A stretch of 64,000 nucleotides of DNA from the NCBI RefSeq assembly GCF_002994745.2, contig NC_037091.1, positions 28,774,289 to 28,838,288 on the forward strand. Direction: 5' to 3'. Position 1 is the first letter of the stretch, and every line of letters begins with the position of its first letter. This document shows, piece after piece, positions 14,524 through 53,113 of the stretch. Made by a program: the position numbers and the translations under genes. The stretch is from Rosa chinensis (Eukaryota; Streptophyta; Magnoliopsida; Rosales; Rosaceae). A model generated the notes under the pieces. It saw only the letters and a program-made list of their open reading frames with translations, was not told the DNA's origin and ran no database searches.

Positions 14524-17359
14524 TGTGACGTCCCGAACCCGAATTCACCGGGTTACTAGTCATTTGGACGGTAAACAACTTTTACTTTCACTTTTACTGT
14601 CGTTTCAATGCTTTTAGGGGGCCCTAAAAGTTGACTTTTTGTTCGGGTCAAAATTTGAGAAAATTTCCTTCATGAAAGTTGTAGAGGACGTTAAACCGAG
14701 CGCGTGCATATGTGGTGCGTAAAAATTGGACTTAGTATGTGAGAGTTATGGCCAAAAATGTAGAATTTACTGTTCATGGTAAGTTGTATATATATATGGA
14801 AATTACTGTTGGTAGATTTCCATTTTTGGAAAATCTACCTAGCCCCCGGTAACTTTCTCTTCTCTCTCCCCGACTCTTCCTCCCTTTCGGCCCGATCTCT
14901 TCCCCCTCCAATTTCTTCCTCCTCCGGCCGACCCAGAAAGTAATCCGGCCACCCCCAAGCTCGGTTTCTTCCCCTTATCACGTCTGTGGAGGTATATTAC
15001 GGTGATTTGGCCGGAGAAGCTCGATTTGGAGCGGAGGAAGCTACGGTGGCAGTTGGCCATTTTTGCCGATTTCCGGCGATTCCGGCCACCTCTGGTCACC
15101 ATTTTGCCGTCAAAGGTTTGGTTTTCCACGGAGATCATTTCGCCCCTAGCCTCGAATCAAGATTTGAAGTGTAGAGGCAGAATTGAAAATCTAGGGTTCT
15201 TGATTTTCTGGGTTTTCTTCACCGGTTGAATTCGACTGTTTAAAGGTAAAATTGGGATGTGTTGTAGTTGAGAAAATTGATCAGTGTGTTGTGTAGGTGC
15301 TGCTGTCAAAATATGGTGGCCATCGGAGGTGGTTGCCGCCTGCGCGTGGGTCCCACGCGCCGCCAACAGTGGCGGCGCGTGGAGGCGTGTTGGGCTGTGT
15401 TTTAATTCCAGTTTTTAGCCCATTAAATCCTATAAATATTGTAGAGCTTATATATGAAATTTGGTGAATTTTGGAGAAGCTTGGAATTAATTATGAATTT
15501 TTGAAGTTTAGGGTTTCGATTATCGAATTACGAGAATCCGGCCGTCGGATATCTCTCGGTTCTGCCTTGGAACCTTTAAATTAACAAAATGGTATTAGTG
15601 GTATAATTTGGGTTGCATCCGAGGAGAAGTGGAGATGTAATTATGAGGATTTGATTTTGAGAATCGTATTTAATTGTTGAATAGTTATTCACGGAATATA
15701 ATTGTGTACAGGGCGATGTACCGAGCTATTGCTCGACGAAGGAACTCGTATGCATGGTCGCCTAAATAGTACTGTGAGTGGACATTTGTTTTTAAATTAA
15801 TTCCGCATGCAGTATTATTATTATTTTCTTCCAATTGAGATTTAATTATGTTTTGAATATTTGAGATTTAGTTTATCGAGATTTATTTATAGATTACGAG
15901 ATTAGTATTGAAATTTCCTTCCCGAGGGCTTTTAGTAGATTTTTGAGATAGTCATTCATGAGTTATTGAATTGAGGAATGATTTTCGGGAAGTGACTGAT
16001 TCAGAAAATATTATGAGAATTTTGGATTTCGAATATCGGTTTTTATGAGGATTCACGAGTACGAATGTTTCATCGAATATTTGAGCATGATTGATTTATC
16101 GAGATTTATTGAGCTTTGAGCTCCGTACTTATCAGCTTTGAAGTTAGATTGAGTTTTCTTCCGAAAGCATTTATTGATTTACAGAGTATTTGATTTTATG
16201 CTTTCGAGGATTTATTGAGATATTGAGGTTTGATTTAGTGAGTTAATCCTGAGTTATGCTTTCGGTGAATTATTATTGATTTATTGAAGTAATACCGAGT
16301 TTCTTTCCGAAAGCAAGTAATTGAAAGAGGTTATTTTCAGTTTCCTGAGGAGGCTATTCAGTTTATTAAGGAGGCCAGTTTTGGCGCATGCGTATCTTAC
16401 CTAGTTGGCAGTCCCTTCTAGGTAATGGTCTGGTTGGCAGTCCCTTCCAGACTACAGCTCGGTTGGCAGTCCCATCCGATGCGTCACCTGGTTGGCAGTT
16501 CCTTCCAGATGACATGAGGTAGTTGGTCGGCAGTCCCGTCTACTACCTGTGGTTAGTCGGCAGTCCCGTCTACTACATGTGGCTAGTTGGCAGTCCCATC
16601 TATCCACCGCCTCCTATTCCGGTTGGCAGTCCCTTCCGATGCGTCATCTGGGTGGCAGTCCCTCCTAGATGGCATGAGATGACTAGACAGCAGTCCTTTC
16701 TAGTCATCAAACGAGCCTCATGAAAATCATGTTTTTATAAGGATTGAGGATGAGATTTTAAGAGACTTCAAGATGTTCTTGTTACGTGATTGAGATTTCA
16801 GTAAAGAGGATGATTAAGAGTGTGTTCAAGATTGTTACTGCATGCGAGGTTTTAGAGAATAACTTGGGAAAGCATTAAGTTTTACTTATTCATTTGAAAT
16901 TACTTATTTTTCGTCCACTCACTCTAACGGATTTTAAATGTTTTCCCCTGGGCCCTTCGGTTTTAAATGCCCAGTTTGCAGGCCAGTTTAGCTTGAGGTC
17001 GAGCGTACTTGGGGTTGAGGCATAGCTGTCATAGCTTCCGCATTATAAAAGTATTGGTCGTTTATCTTGTATTCTACCTTCTTGTACGCCTGAGAAATAG
17101 ATTGCTCTGATATCTCTTGAGATTAATATTCTTAAGTTTCAGAATTGTTTTGTGATATGAGAGATGTTGTGATATAGGGAGCAGGGTGGCTCCAAGAGAA
17201 TAAGGATGGATGATTTAGAAGTGTAATTGTTTGTTTACAGGTTTTGGGTTGTCCATTTTTAGGGGAAGTTCTGTCAAATTTTTTGGTAGAATTTCTTCTA
17301 AGGTGGGCCCCGCAGGGCCTTTTCGGATTTCAGGGTGAAATCCGGGGCGGGTCCTGTCA
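14524..17359 (+). mobile_element. Solo LTR A (large Ty3/Gypsy-type LTR), 2836 bp
   Basis: It begins TGTGACGTCCCG and ends GGGCGGGTCCTGTCA, with TG...CA termini, and is flanked by the 5-bp duplication CTCTA (14519-14523 and 17360-17364). No internal region follows, so it is a solo LTR left by recombination. It shares ends and several blocks with LTR B (31410-34099) and LTR C (from 49597). An AT run (TATATATATATGG) near 14787 followed by a pyrimidine-rich leader looks like the LTR promoter. The size and ends suggest a Tekay/Del-like chromovirus, but lineage cannot be proved without internal domains. Confidence 0.85.
16397..16708 (+). repeat. Array of ten short hairpins with a GGCAGTCC loop, inside LTR A
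   Basis: Ten units repeat every 29-36 bp. The loop, about TTGGCAGTCCCTT, is nearly constant, while the stem changes from unit to unit and mostly stays complementary. Clear stems are TTACCTAG/CTAGGTAA (16397-16425), GTCTGG/CCAGAC (16428-16452), AGGTAGT/ACTACCT (16517-16548), CATCTGGG/CCTAGATG with one G-T pair (16645-16671) and GATGACTAG/CTAGTCATC (16678-16708). Units at 16484-16512 and 16579-16607 pair at 7 of 8 positions. The units near 16460, 16554 and 16620 pair over only 3-4 bp. Confidence 0.85.
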
Positions 17360-25757: not shown

Positions 25758-26915
25758 TACCCCAGAAATTCGTTATTATTTTCTGAAGATTTTTCGGATT
25801 TAATTCAGTGGTTATTGGTACAAGTACGTGGTTCGGGAATGAAGTGGAATTATTTTTGCACGAATAATTATTCGAATTTCATAGTTTTAGGGGGGTCACG
25901 AAGGTTGGCTTTTTATACATTGGGTTTCTCCTAAAACTTCCTTCACAAAAGTCATAGAGCGTGTCGATATGAGTTCGTGGACATGTGGCAAGCATAAATT
26001 GGAGTTCGTATGAGAAAGTTATGGTCAGCTGAAGTTTATGCCATTTTTGGAAATTACTATAAATAGAAGTTTCCGAAAATAAAATTCATTAGTTGTTATT
26101 TTTGGAAAGTTTCTGTTTTTAGAAATTCCTTTTCTCTCCGTTCTCTCTCTTAGAAACCCTAGGATTCGGAAATTTCCGATCGACCCGACCTGACTGCAAC
26201 TCACAATCCTGACGTCCTCTGGCCAAGCTACCAACCCAGAACCATTTAGAGCTACTTCGCAGACCTCTCTGTGGTGGCTTTCAGCAACGATTCGCACTAA
26301 CGACCGCGTTGTAAGGCGGCAAAGTTAGAGGTAGTCAGACCCAATTGGAAATCTCACCTCCGGCGACGGCGGGACTTCAAACCAACCTTTTTGAGCTCGC
26401 ACCAGCCTCCTCGTTCGATTCTTGGTGGTGGTTTCGAGCGATTCTCAGTGTGGAGTAGCAGCTCAAGGTGAACAGTATTTTCCTAGCTTGTGACCGCGAT
26501 CGGCGGAGATCTAGGCCAAGCTCTACTTGGTATTCTTGACATTTTGGATTGTTGGATTAAGGTGGTTTTGAGTTTGGTCCGGCGGTGCATGTGCAACCGC
26601 CTATGGCGGTGCTTTGATGGCCTTTCGGCCATGTAAGAGGTAGTTTCTTGTGTTATTTATCATCTACTCGTCGATACGAGCATTTCGATATATAATACGT
26701 AATTTGGAGATAATATGAGCATGTTAGGGTTTTTTTGTGATTTTGAACCATTCGGTTTTTGATCCATATGGATTCGATTGTACGATCGACTTGTGGTTTT
26801 GATATAACGATCGTAGAAGTGTTTCGGAGACTTTGGGTGGTCTTGGATGAGTTTTCGCCTTGATTGGCATTACTTTTGGGGATTTTAGTTCAAAACAAGG
26901 GTTTCAGACTTTAAC
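25757..26915 (+). mobile_element. LTR F fragment, relative of LTRs A-C
   Basis: It starts near TAATACCCCAGAAATTCG. It shares with LTRs A-C a block order: a GGGGG...GGCTTTTT segment, CTTC(A/C)...AAAGT followed by GTGGACATGTGG-like sequence, GGAGTTCGTATG, then a TATA-like CTATAAATAG near 26058 and a pyrimidine-rich leader. The characteristic 3' end (GGGCGGGTC...GTCA) is missing, so this is a 5' piece only. No hairpin array is visible in the retained part. Confidence 0.55.
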
Positions 26916-27056: not shown

Positions 27057-28882
27057 GTGCGCCGTAAACATGTTGTCACGTGTTGGGGTGTGACTTGAAG
27101 TTTTGAATTTGACTTTTTTTTTTTGGTCACCTTGACTTTGACAGCTTTTCCATTTTAGCTTGTCGCAATGCTTTGCTTTAACGGAGCTAGCTTGTAGAAC
27201 TACACAGTCGTAGACATTCCACAAAAACATCATGATTTAATTTAATAAATATATTACGGATTTCAAATAGTAATAAAAACCCATAACATAAATATTCATG
27301 GAATCACTTCTTGGTTTTTCCTTATGTAAGATATTCACCCGCAAAATTTCAGCAATTGATATCTATAATCATCACACAAATTTGGTGCCATATATAGCAG
27401 AAATTTTGATTTCTTCCATATTTTCATGGTCTCAACTAGGAAATTAATGAAGTGAGAAACCCTAGCCTTTCAATACAAAATGACAGCCTCCTTTGTATTT
27501 TGGAACACAAACGACTTGGCTACTAGCTTCATGGCCTTTTGTCTTTGGTGTTGCAGACGATCATCAAGCAAAGGTTATTTGTCTTTACACGTTTCTTCAT
27601 TAATAATTGAGACAACCAATGGCCTATGCTGACTTTTTATTTCTCTACTCTCTGACAGGGCTTGCTGCTACTTGTTTCTTGTCTCGGGCTTTGTGTGTCG
27701 TCAGCACATAGAAGAGACTAAGCAAGTCCACACGTTGAGCTTGACCGGTCAAGACTATTCACTGTTTTTTTGCCTTGTATTTCTACTATCGAGGCTGACA
27801 GTTCAGATACTGTTCACAAAATATCATGACTGGTCAAATTTTTAGTCAAGAACTATGTCTCTCGATCCTTAATATATATTTTATATTTTCATAGCCTGCT
27901 CGAACTATGTATTTTTTCGGGTCTCTTTGGCAAAGTAAGTACTTGATCTTTCTATTACCGCCCCACCTTCTGACAATACATATATAGAGAGATAGATAGA
28001 CGCTTGCACGTGTAGACCCCAAAGTCTAAGCATGAATAATGAATTCATCCATGTCCAAATATGGTCCTACAGACTTGTGCAAACCAATTCACCCAAGAGC
28101 TTGATCGATTGATTCCATGATTCATCTTCTCACCTGCACGTGCAGCCCATTGAATGATTTTTTTTTTTTCACATCATACATGCAAAAACATGATTAATTG
28201 ATCATTCATGTTCACATGTCCCTTTCACCTTCTTCCTCTTCTGATGACGTCCAAAGCATGGCCAATTTATTATTTTTTTTTTTTAATTTCTCTCACATGC
28301 CCCCTCTTTCTTCTTCTTCTGATCATACCGCTGCCCCTTTTTTTTTTTTTTTTTCCCATACCGTACATTTTTCGTACCGTACATGTATTCTGAAAATTAT
28401 TCTAAATATATATTTTGCTTTCTTTTCAGAGCTTTGGTGATAATTGAAGAACCCTCATTCCTGCTTTCAGTGCTTTGCTGCTTTTGGTGTATTTGCTTCT
28501 CCTGGGACCTTGATTTGACGCAAGTTCTTGGTAGCGGAAAGGCAAGTTTTTGGTATCTGTCATTGATTCATTTGATTAACCATCCTTTTATTATTATTAT
28601 TTTTTTATACATGTCATGACTAGCTTTCTCAAGATATCCATGATGTCATGTCCTACTCGATCTGACAATATGAATATATTAATAAATATACATGTACGTG
28701 TGGTCCAAATCAAAGCATAATTGCATGATTGATTATTTCCTTCTAACCATCCTTCTTTCACATGCTATGACGTCACCTTTTTTAGATGTCGCCTCTTTTT
28801 TTTTAACTTCACACAATTTCATATATATTTCAATATATATATATATATATTGCTTCTTTTTTTCAGAATTTTGGCGACAATT
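27057..28882. other. Non-coding DNA, probably including the 3' LTR side of the Tat element
   Basis: No coding region is supported. The DNA is rich in T-runs, CATGT and (TA)n. Two stretches (about 28425-28455 and 28860-28895) share TTTCAGA, TTGG and ACAATTGAAGAAC-like words. The 3' LTR of the minus-strand Tat element should lie here, but I could not set its borders. Confidence 0.35.
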
Positions 28883-29275
28883 GAAGAACGTAGATGACTT
28901 AAGTACTTGGATTCCTCCACTTTTGTGCGTGGTAGGGTCCGCTAAAAGCAGTTAGGCTTTGCGTGTTTGTCAACGTTAAGGAGAAGAACGTGAACGTCCC
29001 AAGCACTTGGATTCCTCCACCTTTGCTCGTGGTATGGTCCACTAAAAGCGGTTAGGCTCTGCATATTTGGTGGCTCACGAAGAGAAGAATGCGAACGTCG
29101 TAAGCGCTTGAATTCCTCCACCTTTGCTAGTGGTAGGGTCCACTGAAAGCAGTTAGGCTTTGCGTATTTGGTGGCTCACGGAGAGAAGAACGTGGACATC
29201 CTAAGCGCTTAGAATCCTCCACTTTTGTGCATGGTAGGGTCCATTGAAAGCAGTTAGGCTTTGCGTACATCTTCA
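28883..29275. repeat. Four tandem copies of a 100-101-bp unit
   Basis: The landmark ATTCCTCCAC (degenerate in copy 4) recurs at 28911, 29011, 29112 and about 29212. Each unit also has GGTAGGGTCCACT, AGCAGTTAGGCT and a GAAGAACGTG motif. The array lies just upstream of the antisense mobile-domain ORF, that is, in the region corresponding to the 3' UTR of the minus-strand Tat element. Tat/Ogre elements are known to carry tandem repeats there. Confidence 0.93.
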
Positions 29276-31409
29276 GGCACTCGCGACCAGCGCTTCTCGT
29301 CCATTTGTGGCCATGCCTTTTTTCAAGTGCTTCAAGAGTCCAGTCACCATCCTCAAGGATCCGGATGACACTCAAAGTGACGACACCACTCTGCAGGTGT
29401 ACCCATCGTTGACTGGGCCTCAAGCAATCGATGTTCCTCCTTATGACCCTTCCGCTCACATCCTCCAGTGGACTCATGTGGTACCTCGCCAACTAGCTAT
29501 GTTTCGACAACCAAGATCTGGCAGAGACCAACAAAACTCGCATGTACTATTGCTGAAGTCTTCGCATCATGATCAGAACACTCCTCAGACCCTATTCACA
29601 CTTCTCAGTGATCGCATATGCAATAGTTCAGTGTAGTGGAGCAGTGCATTTCGAGCAAATGGCAGGTTTTCTTACACAGAGTTCTACTGGGAATGGGTAG
29701 AAGATATTTTAAGCAGGAGGCTTACCTAGGAGGCTTGCCTCTATCAAGCTATATTTTCCTTACTGTTCAGCTATGACCTTGTTGCACCTGTCATATGAGC
29801 TTTCTATGAGTATTGGTGTTCTACGACGAACACCCTCCACACTTCTAGATGTCCGTCTCCCTCTGGGATTTGGACCAACTTGGAGGTCTGCCTATTGTCG
29901 GACGATTTTATGACGAGGTTGTTCCAATTGCTGAAGAGCTTTATGCAACAAGCAAAGGGAGTCAACAGAGCCGCTATTTGTTTCTCGCCTACCATAAGCA
30001 CTGCAAGGAAGGCTAAGGGCAGAAAGTGAAGATCTTCATGGATACGATACTGGTACAAAGGAGCTTTGCGCTATAAAAGGCCTTCGAACAAAAGCCAAAG
30101 GAACAAAAGAGATCCGCCCCCGAATGCGTTTAATCCATCTGGCAAGATCCATGAGATCTGACAACGAACTTCTGCAGACCTTGCAGTATTTGATGACTTA
30201 GGCATGGATGGTGAAGATATAGAGCCCACCTATTTGGCTGCCTTTCTTGCTTGCTGGTTGTGCCTGTTTGTTTTACCCAGAGACAACACCAGTTTGATTC
30301 ATCCAGGAGTATTCAAAATTGGCAGCAAAATGTCACAGGGTGTACAGTTTTGCCTAGCGGTACCAGTGTTGGCCAGCATCTATCAGGGTTTGAACGAGAT
30401 TTCTGTTTCCAGCAATCCAGGTAGTTGCTCGGCTGCTCTTCCTTTTCATTATATATATGCATGGCTAGCAGAGTACTTCGGCACCCATTTTCAATCTCCA
30501 CTTCCCAAAGACCTAAGGCCTCGTATGGTTTGCTTCTCCGGAGAATTGTCAGCTAAGCATTTTAGAGACTCACAGGCTCTTTCTTTGTTCAACACATGTG
30601 ACAATGTGAGTATGGGTGCATTTTCCAAGGTATTTTCAGACAGCAGAGTGGTTATCAACCGCGGTGACATCTCCCATTTAGACTTGATATATCTGATTAG
30701 CCTTCGATCCGAGTACCTTTCTCTAAGGCAGGATAACCGACGAGTCATTCAGCCATATAGTCCACATCGATTTAGTCGACAGTTTGGTTATGTCAAAGAC
30801 ATTCCTGGCAGCCTTAAGAGTGACATTTGGACCGGCGTACTGGCTCTGATTTATTTGCATTGGGATTCTTGAACCAGAATGGACACCAAGTGTGTGGTAA
30901 CGTTGCCTACCCAAAGTGTCGTCACAGAGTATATGGTTACCCGACTATGTTGATTGGTGGTCTAAAGTGTATCGTTCTACACCAGTGAAAGCAATGAAAG
31001 TAGCGCCTACTAGTGGACCACTGCACAAGTCTCTGAAAGCAAAAGAAGATAAGAACGTCAACCGTGCAACACCACCTCATCACAAAAATGTGATTCCTTG
31101 TGAAGTTGAATGTAGCACCAACGTCCCTACACCTCCTAATAGGGCTTTGCTTCTTAATAGTGACCGTCAGGCTCATCCGATCAACATTCTAGAAGATGAT
31201 GGAGACTCTTTAAATTCTTACGTTGCTTTGGTCTTTCCACTTAAGCTGAAAAGACCCGCAATCCAAGAAAGAAGGCGTAGTGGGAGCAGTAGTAGCAATA
31301 ATAGTGAAGTGCACTTTAAGCGTCAGAAAACTGACACCAATCTTGGCCCTACTTATTGCGATCTCAATGCTGAGTATACTCTGAATACCGACTTTCTTGG
31401 AGATGTTTC

Positions 31410-34099
31410 TGTTACACCCCACATCCGACTTACCCCTTTTTACTGAGTTACACGAATCACTGTATGTTTTACCATTCGCAGTTATAGTTTTATCTTTTAG
31501 GGGGGTGGCTAGAAGTTAACTTTTTATGGGTTAGCAATTTGAGAAAATTTCCTTCATGAAAGTTGTAGAGGACGTTAAACCGAGCGCGTGCATATGTGGT
31601 ACGTAAAAATTGGAGTTCGTATGTGAAAGTTATAGCTTAAAATGTGGAAGTTACTGTTCATGGTAATAAAATATATATATGGAAAGTTACCACTGTAGGT
31701 TTCCATTTTCGGAAACCCACGGTAACTCTCCCTCTCTCCTCCCCCGACCCCTTCCCCTTCGGCCCGAGTTGGTTCTCCTCCGATTTCTCCCTCCTACGGC
31801 CGACCCACGACGGAATCCGGCTATCCCCAAGCTCGTCTCCTCCCCCTTGACACATTGGCGGTGGTATTTTGTGAAGTTTTGGTCAGAGAAGCTCGATTTC
31901 GAGCCGGGAAGGTAACTGTTGCAGTTTGTGATTTTTGCCGATTTCCGGCGATTCCAGCCATCTCCGGTCACTAAACCGACATCGAAGGTCGGGTTTTTGA
32001 TGGAGATTATTTCCCCTAAGGTCTTGCTTTTCAATTTGCAGTGTGGAGGTCGAATCGATCAAACCCGATCCTAGGGTTCTTGAATTTTTCTGGAAAATTT
32101 TCACCGGCTTAATTGGAGCTCTTCCAGGTAAAATTGGCACTTGTTGTAGTTGAGAAAGAGATTGGGTCTGTTGAGTAGGTGGTGCTGCCAAAATTTGGTG
32201 GCCATTGGTGGTGGTTGGCCGGTGGCGCGTGGGCCCCACCGCGGCCACTGTGGGTGGCGCGTGGAGCTGCAATTTATTTTCTGTTTTGGCTCCATAAATC
32301 CCTTAACGATTGTAGAATTTTATACATGAAGTTTGGTGGAAATTGGAGGAATTACGAATTGAGTATAAATGGATAATTATCGATTTACGTGAATTCGATC
32401 GCCGAAATTCTTTCGAATTCACTTTAGAATTTATATATCGATGAATGAATATTGTTGGAATATTGTGGATGGTTCGTTGTGAATTAAGGAGTTGGATTTT
32501 GAAGGGGGACGTTTTGAATTTCAATTTCCAATTACCGTAAAGTTAATTTCCGTCCTGTAAATATATATTTTTTACGAGTGTTATTCGTACAGGACGAGAG
32601 GAGTCTTCGTACGAGGAAAATACCGAGCGACGTCAGGATTGACTATATACTGTGAGTGGACTTTTATTTTTCAAAGAATGATGCATGCATTTATTCAATC
32701 GGTTCCGAGGTTATAATTTATTTATCGTATTACTTTCCCGAGCATATGGTTATTTTCAGAAATGGTTTTGGATATTTGGTTATTTGAAGGTTTTATGGCG
32801 TGCGGGGTCACGTCATTGGATTACGCTTATCTTCTCTTATTTATTCCTTTCCGATATGATTTCCGGATTTATACTATTTATATTATATTTATATTCGGCG
32901 ATTTGAGATTTTTATGAGATTTCGATGGAGTTAATCTTTATACTTATTTATCTCCTATTTATTTTGAACTTGAGATTATCTTGGCGTGTGGGACACGTCG
33001 TTGGAAATTCATTTACGAGAGATGGGGAAGCTTTATGTACTTATGGATTTATGAGGTTTTCGGATTTTCTTTTGCCATACTTTGGGTGACTTATCATTGC
33101 TAGCATTGATTTTCCGCCTTTGTGGCGTGGTGATGGGATCACCGTAGCCCTCCGCCTTTGTGGCGCAGGTTACTGTCTATGTGACAGTAATTCTGTAGCC
33201 CGGTATCCTATCGCTACACTTAGTGGCGTAAGGGTATATTACGGAAGTAATGGGAGTATTTTAGCCTGGGAGGCTTTCACCCGAGCCTGGGAGGCTCACT
33301 CGTATGGCTATCATCTTCCCCTACTCATTTTACTACTTAGGCTAGCGGGGCTAGCTCGATTTTCGTTTAACCAGCGGGGCTGGTCTTATTTTCCTTGAGT
33401 ATCAGAGTTCCAACCTTTTCTTTTAAATCGTATGTGACTAGCGGGGCTAGTTGGTTTTCATGAGCGGAACTCCTCTTGTTTTATTTTCGTTAATCATTAC
33501 ATGCATCGGAAATTTTTAAAGAAATAAATGTGGGAAGTATAAAATCCATTTGGTTTAAATTTGTTTATTTTTGTCCACTCACGCTAACGTTTTTATGTAC
33601 TTTCCCCTGGGCCCTTCGGTTTCAAATGCCCAGTTTTCAGTGTTGCTGCTCGACGTTCAGGAGTGAGCCATAGTGACCGCATCTGCTTCCGTCATCATAT
33701 TTTGTAGGTTATCTATTTAGCCTACTGTACTCTATGTTAAATTTACGTTCCTAGAATTGCTCTGATTACTATGGGATTTGTGACCCAGACTTGTATGGAA
33801 ATATATTTGAGGTCTACGACCTAACTTTGGGAATTGTAATATCTAAAATCTTGGAGTTTCTTAGACTTGAAGTACTTGTTAAACTATTATTATTTTGGGC
33901 TTGAGTTGGTGGAATGATGGGAGCAGGGTGGCTCCCGGAGTTTGTGGTTGGATTATTAGAAGTGAAATTTGTTTTCCACAGGTTTTGGGTTGTCCATTTT
34001 TAAGGGAGGTTATGCCGAAATTTTGGTAAACCTTCTTTAAAAGTGGGTCCTGTAGGGCCACTTCGGATTCCAGGGTGGAATCCGGGGCGGGTCTTGTCA
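31410..34099 (+). mobile_element. Solo LTR B, 2690 bp, inserted in the PMD ORF
   Basis: It begins TGTTACACCCCAC and ends GGGCGGGTCTTGTCA, flanked by the 5-bp duplication GTTTC (31405-31409 and 34100-34104). Removing it with one GTTTC restores the reading frame of the PMD linker. It shares promoter, leader and 3' blocks with LTR A, with an AT run near 31671 and the CCCCTGGGCCCTTCGG block at 33604. It differs in the middle, where it holds its own type of hairpin array. No internal domains remain. Confidence 0.88.
33114..33451 (+). repeat. Array of about eleven short hairpins, six with a GGG triloop, inside LTR B
   Basis: Perfect stems separated by the triloop GGG are GGTGAT/ATCACC (33129-33143), AGCCT/AGGCT (33263-33275), GAGCCT/AGGCTC (33283-33297), GCTAGC/GCTAGC (33341-33355), ACCAGC/GCTGGT (33370-33384) and ACTAGC/GCTAGT (33437-33451). 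Others are CGCC/GGCG with loop TTTGT (33115-33127 and 33153-33165), TTACTGT/ACAGTAA (33170-33190), TGTAGC/GCTACA (33194-33218) and CGTAA/TTACG (33227-33243). Confidence 0.88.
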
Positions 34100-49596: not shown

Positions 49597-51342
49597 TATA
49601 ACGTCCCGAACCTGAAGTTGCCGGTTTACTAGTCATTTGGACGGTAAACGGCCTTTACTTCCACTTTTACTGTCGTTTTAGTGCTTTTAGTGACCCTAAA
49701 AGATGACTTTTTGTTCCGGTCAAAATTTGAGAAAATGTTCTTCATGAAAGTTGTAGAGGACGTTAAACCGAGAGCGTGCATATGTGGTACGTAAAAATCG
49801 GAGTTCATATACGAAAGTTATGGCCAAAATACTAAAGTTACTGTTCATAGTAATTTTCTATAAATAGCCAAGTTACTGTGGTAAGTTTCCATTTTCGGAA
49901 ACTTACCGAGCCCTCTCCCTTCTCTCTCCCCGATTCTCTCTTCCTCTCCGACCTCTTCACCTTCTTCTGGCCATAACTCCTCCATCCGGCGACGGATTTT
50001 GACGTATAAGATGTCGTTGGAAAGCTCTCTTCCTTATCTTCATTTCTGTGTCCATTTCATAGCTTGATATGAACTGTGAAAGATGCAGCAACGAGAAGAA
50101 GAGGACGGTCACTGTAGCAGTTTTGAGTCAACGCCAATATTTTCCGATTCCGGCAATCTCCGGCCACCAAATTGGCGTCGAAGGTTCGGTTTTTGACATA
50201 GATCATTTCCCCTAAGGTCTTTCATTTCAATTTGCAGTGTAGAGGTCGAATTAACAATTTCAATTTCTAGGGTTCTTGGAATTTTTGGAAATTTTTCACC
50301 GGCCAAATTGGAGCTCTTCCAGGTAAAATTGGAACTTATTGTAGTTGAGAAAGAGGTTGGGTTTGTTGAGTAGATGGTGCTGCCAAATTTTGGTGGCCAT
50401 CGGAGGTGGTTGCTGGTGGCGCGTTGGGCCCACGCGCTGCCACTGTTGGTGGCGAGTGGAGGCGTGTAGGGCAGTGTTTTAATTCCGGTTTTTAGCCCAT
50501 TAAATCCTATAAATTGTGTAGTGTATGTGAAGTTTGGTAATTTTTGGAGAAACTTGGAATTAATTATGGATTTTGAAGTTTAGGGTTTTGATTATCGAAT
50601 TACGAGAATCCGACCGTCGGATATCTCTTGGTTCTGCCTTAGAACCTTTAAATTAACGAATTGGTATTAGAGGTATAATTTGGGCTGAATCCGAGGAGAA
50701 TGGGAGATGTAATTATGAGGATTTGATTTTAGGAATCGTATTAAATTGTTGAATAATTATTCACGGAATATAATCGTGTACAAGATGCCGTACCGAGCTC
50801 TGGCTCGATGAAGGAACTCGTATACGTGATCGTCGGAATAGTACTGTGAGTGGACTTTTATTTTTTCAAAGAATGATGCATGCTTTTATTTAATTGGTTC
50901 CGAGGTTATAATTTGTTTATCGTATTAATTTCCAGAGCATATGGTTATTTTCGAAAATGGATTTGGATTTATGATTATTTGAAGATTTTATGGCGTGCGG
51001 GGTCACGTCATTGGAATGCTTATTTCCCTCCTATTTATTTTATTAATGAGATTTTTAGAAAGATTTTCGAAATGAGATTTCGATGGAGTAAATCTTTATA
51101 TTTATTTTGAACGTGAGATTATCTTGGCGTGTGGGACACGTCGATGGAAATTCATTTACGAGAGATGGGGAAGCTTTATGTACTTATGGATTTACTTGGT
51201 TTTCGGATTTTCTATTGCCATACTTTGGGTGACTATTATCATTGCTAGCATTGATTTTCCGCCTTTGTGGCGCGGTGATGGGATCACCGTAGCCCTCCGC
51301 CTTTGTGGCGCAGGTTACTGTCTATGTAACAATAATTCTGTA
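49597..51342 (+). mobile_element. LTR C (left part), relative of LTRs A and B
   Basis: It begins TATAACGTCCCGAACC, aligned with TGTGACGTCCCGAACC of LTR A, and keeps the same block order. A clear TATA box, TATAAATA, lies at 49859-49866, followed by a CTCTCTCCCCGA leader. From about 50820 it follows LTR B more closely. It keeps the first hairpins of the LTR B array, including GGTGAT-GGG-ATCACC at 51274-51288. CACTA element 2 cuts it at 51343; the remainder should be beyond the window. Confidence 0.82.
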
Positions 51343-53113
51343 CACTAGGCCAATAACCTCAATATACAACACTTTTTGCACAACGAAAAAGAAGAAGATG
51401 TTGTGTGATGATGGAAAATCAATCATACAACACGATTAAGAACCCTACGTTGTATAAAGCCATAAAAATTTTGAAGTTTTTATGTAGAAGGTGATTGCAC
51501 AACACTGATAAAAAAAATTTGTTGTGTGAATGATAAAAAAAAAGAGCGGCATATTTCCCTCCTAGTTTGACACGAATTTGGGTTCAAATATGTATTACAT
51601 AGTACAACGGAATAGTTATATCTGTTGTATGAGTGTAGCTTGCAAAATGTTATACAACAGTTTTTTTACTTTGTGTTGTATGATCGAGGAAGATACATTG
51701 AGAATGTTTGGAAGTGCCTCCCAATGCCACTCATTCCCCCCAAATCTGCAAATTTTTATTGACATATATGTGATGTTGCAAGCTCCTACAACATAAATGG
51801 CTTATTCATGTTGTCTGAAGAGAAATGCCTATCTCTAGCGCCAAAGCTAATATTTTGATTGCCTATAGCGGGAACTTTCCCTCTTTAAAATCTCAGCTCA
51901 AATTTAATGTCTACATAATTAGACAACATAATTTGATCCGTGTGTTGTCTGATAATGAATAAAATAAAAAAACGCCTCTTTGACTTTGTCTCCAGCCACT
52001 TAGACAAAATAGCTATTTCCTCTAAACCATCTCTCCTCAAAACATTGTCTCCTCTCGCTCTCTCTCTCTCTCTCTTCCCATATCGCTCTTCTCTCCTATC
52101 GTCTCCACAATCCCTTCCTCCATCTACATCTACATCACCGCCGGGATTAGGGTTCTATTATCTTGACTCAGCCATCACTAAGTTCTATTTGTGAAGAAGA
52201 TAAGGATTCTGTGTACTGGGAAGAGGGAGGAGATTCTTCGAGATCTGCTGAAGATTAGGGTTCTTCGATCTCTGGGTTTATAATGTTGATTTGGGGATTT
52301 GTAGTCTACTCGATTTGGGGGTTTCACAACAATTTGATTTGTGGGGATTTGTGGGCTACTGGATTTGGAGATTTGTGGGTACTCGATTTCCTCATATCCA
52401 CTTCCTTTCTCCTTCATCTCTCTCTCATGGTGGCTGCACATGGCGAGCGAGCAACCGCTGATCCTCATCCACAAGTGCAAGCTTTAGAGTGTCCTATAAC
52501 ATGTCGCAACCATCACTAAGGACGTCAAGGACTCTGAATTCTTCAGCTTCATCACCAGTGAGTAATTTCACCATCTCTTCTTTTTGGTATTTGTTCTTAT
52601 GTTCAATCAGACCACTTTTGGTTCAATTTGAGATTAATTGTGGGGGTTTTAGTGTTTAGGGCCAGCGATAAGTGTTAGAAGGAGAAGAGGAAGACAATTA
52701 ATGGTGATGATTTGCTGTGAGTGATGGTTTCCCTTCTCTCACTTTCTCACAATTTCTTCTCCAAAGGTGATCAATTCTCTCAATTTCGTATTTCTTCTCC
52801 AAAGGTGATCAATTCTCTCAATTTCGTATTTATCTTTGTTCGTCTTGAAATTTGATTTCGGAGAAAGTTTCAATTGGAAAATGTTCAACAAAGTTCAAAA
52901 CTTTTTCATATATTGGGTCTTCAAGATATAGAAAGACCCACCTGCACTAGCCCTTCAAGTGTAATTAAGCACATATGGATGAAGGGTTTTGTTGTTTTTG
53001 GTCTAAAGTTTTGGTTTTTTTTTTTTTTCTTTTTCTGACTGATCTCTCAGCAACCAGTCTAAGAAGTTGTTAATTCAAATTGGAATTTGATATATGAGTT
53101 TTTCTATTTGCAG

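Follow-up and report, generated by a model that had tools for sequence, protein, structure and literature searches.

The LTRs of the window

The window analysed here, a stretch of 64,000 nucleotides of Rosa chinensis (contig NC_037091.1, positions 28,774,289 to 28,838,288 of the forward strand; coordinates below are those of the window), contains three members of a family of long terminal repeats (LTRs), all on the plus strand, and our subject is a row of short hairpins within the second of them, LTR B. From the sequence of the array and of its relatives, the best reading is that it forms the crown of a larger RNA domain of about 930 nt in LTR B and 1150 nt in most copies of the LTR A type.

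LTR B (31410-34099) and LTR A (14524-17359) are solo LTRs with TG...CA ends (TGTTACACCCC...TCTTGTCA in LTR B) and a 5-bp target duplication on both sides, namely GTTTC, directly adjoining, in the case of LTR B and CTCTA in the case of LTR A. LTR C (49597-51342, its start being approximate) is like LTR A up to the 5' arm of the module described below (50846) and like LTR B beyond it, and is broken off at 51343. The sequence that interrupts it from there begins with CACTA (CACTAGGCCAATAACC); no matching inverted end lies within the window. A conserved block of the family was found at 2788 places in the genome (at most 3 mismatches), and query matches lie mainly on contigs C1-C7 of the 515-Mb assembly.

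A row of hairpins with a repeated loop

The original prediction named six perfect stems in the array, each enclosing exactly GGG, and all six are present as described between 33129 and 33451 on the plus strand: GGTGAT-ggg-ATCACC (H2, 33129-33143), AGCCT-ggg-AGGCT (H7, 33263-33275), GAGCCT-ggg-AGGCTC (H8, 33283-33297), GCTAGC-ggg-GCTAGC (H9, 33341-33355), ACCAGC-ggg-GCTGGT (H10, 33370-33384) and ACTAGC-ggg-GCTAGT (H11, 33437-33451). An extra GGG hairpin, CGTGT-ggg-ACACG (H0, CGTGTgggACACG, 32985-32997), lies upstream of the interval 33114-33451 to which the array had been assigned. The four to five further perfect stems that had been claimed hold only in part: TTACTGTC-tatgt-GACAGTAA (H4, 8 bp, 33170-33190) and ATTAC-ggaa-GTAAT (H6, 5 bp, 33238-33251) are clear, whereas CGTAA/TTACG overlaps the latter, the two occurrences of CGCC-tttgt-GGCG (H1, 33115-33127, and H3, 33153-33165) have 4 bp, and CGCTAC-actta-GTGGCG (H5, 33212-33228) needs one G.U pair; these, too, are on the plus strand.

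Sequence of matched composition does not reproduce the array. When the 338-nt interval 33114-33451 was dinucleotide-shuffled 2000 times, stems of at least 5 bp around GGG numbered 0.009 on average and 1 at most, as against 6 observed; for stems around any 3-nt loop the observed number was 6 versus a shuffled mean of 0.29, and for stems with any loop of 3-8 nt it was 10 versus 1.5 (500 shuffles). Within the window, 11 of the 565 GGG sites (overlapping sites counted) have stems of at least 5 bp, i.e. 6 of the 11 array sites versus 5 of the 554 elsewhere, and all 11 stems fall in LTRs A, B and C, which contain 91 of the 565 sites. When the right arms were dealt anew among all eight GGG runs of the array, a test that involves no selection on perfect hairpins, the observed 40 paired positions out of 48 flanking ones were reached in 0 of 20000 deals (mean 18.1).

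The tandem-repeat program TRF, whose criterion is head-to-tail repetition, reports no array inside 33114-33451. A search of Rfam gave nothing above the gathering threshold, the sole sub-threshold match in LTR B being HYMAI (25.6 versus 80 bits). Pattern scans for relatives of the array outside this genome yielded none in viral contigs and, in genome contigs, one match in a bacterial metagenome-assembled genome, which we take as chance.

An array occupies the same relative place in LTR A, as had been proposed: its centre lies at about 0.72 of the LTR length, compared with about 0.70 in LTR B. The LTR A array (about 16402-16712) consists of 10 units with the loop CAGTC (CAGTT in one), whose closing pairs are GG/CC, or AG/CT in the final unit; the arms differ between units, yet pair within each of them. 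In this copy 57 of 80 positions are paired within units versus 36.1 after re-dealing; across A-type copies, with units located by the loop anchor and some sites outside the array thereby included in both counts and permutation, 812 of 1352 positions are paired, while 2000 re-deals gave 491 on average and never more than 562. The LTR A array is partly tandem (periods of 29-30 bp according to TRF), and the number of units varies between A-type copies, with 7-14 anchor matches per copy.

Closing helices of the predicted domain

In LTR B the array is bracketed by two inverted 10-mers on the plus strand, GTGAGTGGAC (32652-32661), which is also splice-donor-like, and its exact complement GTCCACTCAC (33573-33582), and the identical pair, predicted to form a closing helix (P1), brackets the module of LTR A (arms starting at 15774 and 16913, module 15774-16922). 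No other inverted 10-mer pair at a distance of 500-1400 nt is common to LTRs A and B. Because shuffled LTRs yield 1.7 inverted 10-mer pairs of any sequence at that distance per LTR, the mere presence of P1 is not telling, and what counts is that it is shared and conserved: 60 of the 70 copies L002-L071 retain both arms, together with CTRA, intact. P1 is part of the minimum-energy fold in all 15 copies folded, i.e. every fourth of the 60 arm-bearing ones, in sense as well as in antisense, and it is kept in 39 of 40 folds with a shuffled interior, as the arms alone would predict. The sense fold is more stable than the antisense fold in all 15 copies.

A second predicted closing helix (P2) lies inside the first, with the arms GATGCATG (32680-32687) and CATGCATC (33500-33507) in LTR B, both on the plus strand. 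B-type and C-type copies have it as GATGCATGCA and its complement, over 10 bp (16 of 19 and 6 of 13, respectively), and A-type copies as CGCATGCAGTA and its complement, over 11 bp (23 of 28); among the other 15 copies 12 keep 8-10 nt, the rest having 8-9 nt (B-type) or, in one C-type copy, an unrelated 7-mer. A displaced control segment gave no such pairing in 56 of 60 copies and 6-7 nt in the other 4. The sequence of P2 is thus unlike between the A and B types, while it is self-complementary in each.

Together, the predicted stalk comprises 34 pairs in B (3 of them G.U) and 62 pairs in A (11 G.U), and it is less variable than the rest of the module (1.6% versus 3.9% in 40 B copies; 0.7% versus 2.9% in 30 A copies). 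Its one-sided changes, counted by type, keep the pair in 6 cases in B and 7 in A, produce A.C in 4 and 1, and break the pair otherwise in 13 and 10.

Conservation and pair changes among genome copies

That relatives of LTR B carry the array, a point on which the original prediction had staked itself, is borne out in the genome. Forty copies, the best-scored of 3630 candidates and therefore not a random sample, were aligned over 32961-33560. A further 16 LTR copies, all lying on C1 or C2, were chosen by hand among the first 100 places without a mismatch, a choice that leans towards the A type (13 A-type, 2 B-type and 1 of a weak third type). In the 40 aligned copies, minor alleles amount to 1.7% in stems (124 sites), 2.6% in loops (42), 3.6% in spacers (172) and 4.3% in flanks (228), an order that is unchanged when sites with a G/C and with an A/T majority are taken separately. 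In 20000 permutations of the sites, stems never differed as much from spacers and flanks combined, though neither sites nor copies are independent.

The count of pair changes covered 47 copies plus a partial, divergent one, and of the 16 hand-picked copies only L080 and L088 were among them; L074, in which the sequence before the tail is unrelated, did not enter the hairpin counts. In the true register 96.7% of 3407 cells pair, as opposed to 29-57% when the partner is slid by 1-3 columns. Per-stem covariation, which the original prediction had proposed to score, is favourable when counted by cell and undecided when counted by pair: changes on both sides occur in 20 cells, versus 0-7 in the slid controls, and in 5 pairs, versus 0-7. 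The majority of these 20 cells lie in H9, whose first pair is A-U in 29 copies, G.U in 11, G-C in 8 and A.C in none. Where most copies have a Watson-Crick pair, G.U variants outnumber A.C variants by 25 to 16 when counted by type and by 72 to 32 when counted by cell; this excess points to sense RNA as the form in which the stems matter, though the copies share ancestry.

Taken with the limits set out below, the comparison of copies indicates a conserved RNA secondary structure. We regard it as very probable that the closed domain with its hairpin crown is a real structure, and as probable that it acts at the RNA level.

Exchange of the module between LTR lineages

In L028-L041, which make up 14 of the 40 copies, flanks like those of LTRs A and C surround a B-like module. 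Their modules are 91-94% identical to B. Their upstream flanks are 72-90% identical to A and 71-94% to LTR C and have no B match; downstream, identity is 76-88% to A and 76-81% to B, with A closer in 10 of the 14 and an A match about twice as long in the other 4. Thirteen of the 14 C-type matches span query positions 138/139-1131, i.e. 32647/8 to 33640, and one extends to 1273. LTR C of the window displays the same border: in the 400 nt that precede the 5' arm its identity is 0.80-0.93 to A versus 0.46-0.68 to B, and beyond the 5' arm it is 0.80-0.98 to B versus 0.36-0.50 to A. The same B crown thus stands amid different flanks, and these alignments therefore show an exchange of the module between LTR lineages, in addition to gain and loss of units in place.

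The architecture is accordingly conserved while the crown changes, as the original prediction had it, and neither the shuffles nor the relatives contradict that reading. Its proposal of a rapid turnover was right in that units are gained and lost in the A type, but incomplete, since the B crown is stable in the 40 copies and the exchange of whole modules is needed as well. Nor did that prediction extend to the long-range helices that would close the domain beneath the array.

L009 contains a further LTR in which a third, weak kind of array makes up the first half, with B-like H8-H11 after it. Here (L009:1-1130) and in L079, units of the form CTCCTCCTCAC...GTGAGTGGCAGT.GAGG stand in place of H1-H7, with a TGGCAGT that is common to A-type loops. 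We considered this third crown type as another strong array and rejected it: it is array-like by eye, but its folding is weak (z-scores on the plus and minus strands of -1.6 and -3.9 in L009 and of +0.2 and 0.1 in L079).

The host element

Two B-type LTRs lie 13.4 kb apart on C6 (L004 and L005) and probably bound one full-length element. Two bases past the end of the LTR in L004 stands TGGTATCAGAGC, which we take to be a primer-binding site (PBS) for tRNA-Met. A Gag piece beside the first LTR matches PF03732 (35.9 bits, cut-off 24.1), and a candidate CCHC knuckle beside it scores 20.4 bits, just below the cut-off of 20.8. The last open reading frame (ORF) before the second LTR matches PF00385 below its cut-off (22.0 versus 25.1 bits, E 1.5e-4), and SH3_Tf2-1 scores 83.5 bits at this chromodomain-like end of the B-type pol. 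We class the element as Ty3/gypsy with a chromodomain-like integrase end. Before gag, L004 (3077-3300) contains TTCTTCAGGTACTATGG, which resembles a second splice acceptor in the leader.

A-type LTR pairs are about 5.6-6.2 kb apart (e.g. C6:27284850/27290453 and C2:77500996/77507179), which is shorter than the 13.4 kb of the B type. For one pair with a spacing of 5.6 kb, 1.5 kb adjoining the 5' LTR was read and holds no ORF longer than 76 amino acids; the short A-type elements are perhaps without genes of their own.

A leader RNA that would mark genomic RNA

The arrangement suggests that the module is an apparently undescribed RNA signal for the handling of the element's genome copies. With the start of transcription placed from a TATA-like box at 31670-31680 on the plus strand, and given the position of the module before the PBS, transcription would pass through it. 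In the transcript the nearly invariant 10-bp helix and the further stalk pairs would close a domain whose crown is a row of short hairpins repeating one loop, GGG in B and CAGTC in A. Acting as sense RNA, the module would be a cis-acting identity signal by which full-length RNA is marked for retention and packaging, its repeated exposed loops serving as ligands for Gag (for its CCHC knuckle in the case of GGG) or for a host protein, with the selection of genomic RNA as the most likely outcome. GGG loops would suit such a knuckle because HIV-1 nucleocapsid protein is described, in the passages at issue, as binding exposed guanosines (PMC7395439). The donor- and branch-point-like sequences at the base of the stalk may in addition form a regulated splice switch, in which pairing of GTGAGT within P1 would hinder splicing, while spliced RNA would stay out of reverse transcription. 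This reading, i.e. a sense-RNA leader domain that marks genomic RNA, plausibly for packaging by Gag, is the one we favour, but tentatively and with reservations that keep it somewhat short of probable.

A number of observations weigh against it. In the count of both-sided changes, the slide by 2 columns gave 7 pairs, more than the 5 in the true register, though in fewer cells, so that the pair count alone is not decisive. P1 never co-varies, and no stalk pair has changed on both sides within one type. Some hairpins are broken: the outer pair of H2 is A.G in 11 copies, the outer position of H10 is A.C in 39 copies, and H4 of LTR C is disrupted by two A.C mismatches. The GGG-rich part of the array is not singled out by folding energy (plus-strand z-scores of +0.14 and +0.5 for the 120-nt windows that begin at 33270 and 33330, compared with -2.6 and -3.9 for those that begin at 33090 and 33150), the B module folds only about 2 standard deviations better than versions with a shuffled interior (-260.4 versus -247.2, standard deviation 6.4), and the greater stability of the sense strand is owed partly to its richness in G and T. 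Near the LTR end, the terminal hairpin described below has the loop CCT in the first LTR of L009. Finally, the A crown displays CAGTC and not GGG, which implies that one rule of Gag recognition cannot cover both crowns and that recognition would be subfamily-specific or by a host protein. It is the counts of A.C breaks, together with the variation of the branch site in C-type copies, that set our confidence at the level given.

A more far-reaching version, which we consider rather doubtful, combines a standard stalk with interchangeable crowns: the crown would be an address that chooses the Gag, the possibly gag-less A-type elements would swap partners by recombination at the stalk base, and the buried donor would keep the address on unspliced RNA.

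The rival that fares best, although we think it doubtful as well, is that the module is mainly an intron of the leader (donor ACT|GTGAGT, branch site CTAAC/CTGAC, acceptor NCAG|) whose splicing is regulated, with the stalk and hairpins tuning its efficiency and no role in packaging. Signals of the form GT, branch point and AG are indeed present at the ends of the module, in a weak donor context. A branch-point-like CTAAC (CTGAC in L080) lies at 33584-33588 and an acceptor-like TTTTCAG at 33634-33640, both on the plus strand; the blastn match between A and B ends at the latter too, and in all 40 aligned copies the block ends with the final CAG of this acceptor-like sequence. The exchanged module is thus flanked by GTGAGT, by CTRAC and by CAG after a variable base, the C-type matches have the same borders in 13 of 14 cases, and the arms and B-type branch site vary by 0-1.3% versus 3-7% in the surroundings (three of the 40 copies having no letters at the 5' arm). 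The T content of the module, 39.3%, exceeds that of the B flanks (31.8% and 36.5%), but the excess over the downstream flank is slight, the main donor form lacks G at position -1, and the branch site varies by 6.1% in C-type copies. No exact module-less junction of the A or B type turned up in the genome at up to 3 mismatches, compared with 1517 intact A-type left junctions. A review, in the part that concerns this, describes introns as generally absent from plant LTR elements, Ogre and EVADE excepted (PMC12786077). The absence of empty junctions means either that the module is not spliced out or that spliced RNA is not copied back, and both would fit a mark of genomic RNA.

An origin without function, in which template switching during reverse transcription or repair keeps the arms alike and duplication of units changes the array, would agree with the mostly perfect Watson-Crick stems of the crown, with the varying number of A-type units (again the 7-14 anchor matches), and with the forms that H9 and H11 have in common, by which copying between units is possible. 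We consider it unlikely, as it leaves unexplained the invariant arms 900 nt apart, the low variability of stems and stalk, the retained G.U states, and the use of a single loop in a single orientation.

About as improbable is an element acting as DNA, in which palindromic binding sites, or DNA that forms cruciforms, would serve as an enhancer, an insulator or a target of silencing. Short-spaced palindromes occur as features of DNA too, the array sits in an LTR and the arms pair equally in antisense; but the stem sequences are unlike, so that there is no common duplex motif, G.U variants outnumber A.C variants, and 11 of the 62 A-type stalk pairs are G.U in the sense strand. The shuffle-corrected z-scores of the LTR tail also speak for the sense strand in LTR B (-5.9 versus -1.7 in antisense), but less so in LTR A (-5.1 versus -4.1). 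Least of all do we expect an ancient insertion of foldback-like DNA bounded by terminal inverted repeats, which would account for the inverted 10-mers at the module ends and for a module in LTRs with unlike flanks, but beside whose arms no target duplication is evident by eye, while the conservation between A and B runs 58 nt beyond the 3' arm and the position in the LTR is constant.

Comparison with known systems

Like the packaging regions in retroviral 5' leaders (HIV-1 Psi and relatives), the predicted rose leader would be a structured RNA before gag, accompanied by a Gag with a CCHC knuckle and having guanosines exposed in loops, such as HIV-1 nucleocapsid protein is described as binding (PMC7395439). 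It differs from Psi in that it lies inside the LTR, upstream of the PBS, measures 900-1150 nt and has many near-identical triloops and a subfamily-specific crown, its role in packaging being only a prediction. The BARE1/BARE2 system of barley offers a parallel in its separate RNA pools and in a Gag-less family that is packaged by a partner; it belongs, however, to another superfamily (Ty1/copia), has a 104-nt intron inside gag, and is described without mention of a hairpin array in the relevant passages (PMC3735527). In a study of LTR structure by Benachenhou et al. (2013), the portions concerned report that in long R regions conservation is favoured by stem-loops, whereas the LTRs of plant Metaviridae were left unmodelled owing to their variation in length (PMC3601003).

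Likenesses to chromoviruses are the long LTRs, the tRNA-Met-like PBS and the chromodomain-like stretch that ends the last ORF ahead of the 3' LTR. Among chromoviruses, Tekay/Del-like elements would be the nearest candidates. Of the papers listed in a search on Tekay, LTRs and hairpins, none deals with such arrays as judged from title and abstract opening, and the same holds for those listed in the other literature searches.

How plant LTR retrotransposons choose RNA for packaging is little known, and the module would offer a concrete and movable candidate; it also appears to be an example of a structured RNA module that is swapped between lineages with borders at its closing helix.

Other structured features and minor observations

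All three LTRs have a hairpin shortly after the TATA-like box, in LTR B GTAGGTTTCC/GGAAACCCAC at 31695-31720 on the plus strand. Between these homologous hairpins of LTRs A, B and C, 4 of 18 predicted pairs have changed on both sides, with one A.C break in B.

Towards the LTR end, a long hairpin with G.U pairs is predicted on the plus (sense) strand at about 33987-34051 and is followed by a terminal hairpin, CGGATTCCA-ggg-TGGAATCCG (34064-34084, plus strand), in which T-A replaces C-G in A-type LTRs. Exact forms of the terminal hairpin were counted with a narrow pattern that leaves decayed forms outside: 29 have T-A and 15 have C-G, besides a mismatched form and another whose loop is TGG. The folding energy of the LTR tail is -79.0 in sense versus -49.5 in antisense in LTR B, and -77.3 versus -43.0 in LTR A.

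Elsewhere in the window, a fragment at 25885-26022 is 71% like the start of LTR B and is perhaps part of a fourth, more distant LTR, and a 101-bp unit is present in four tandem copies at 28881-29283.

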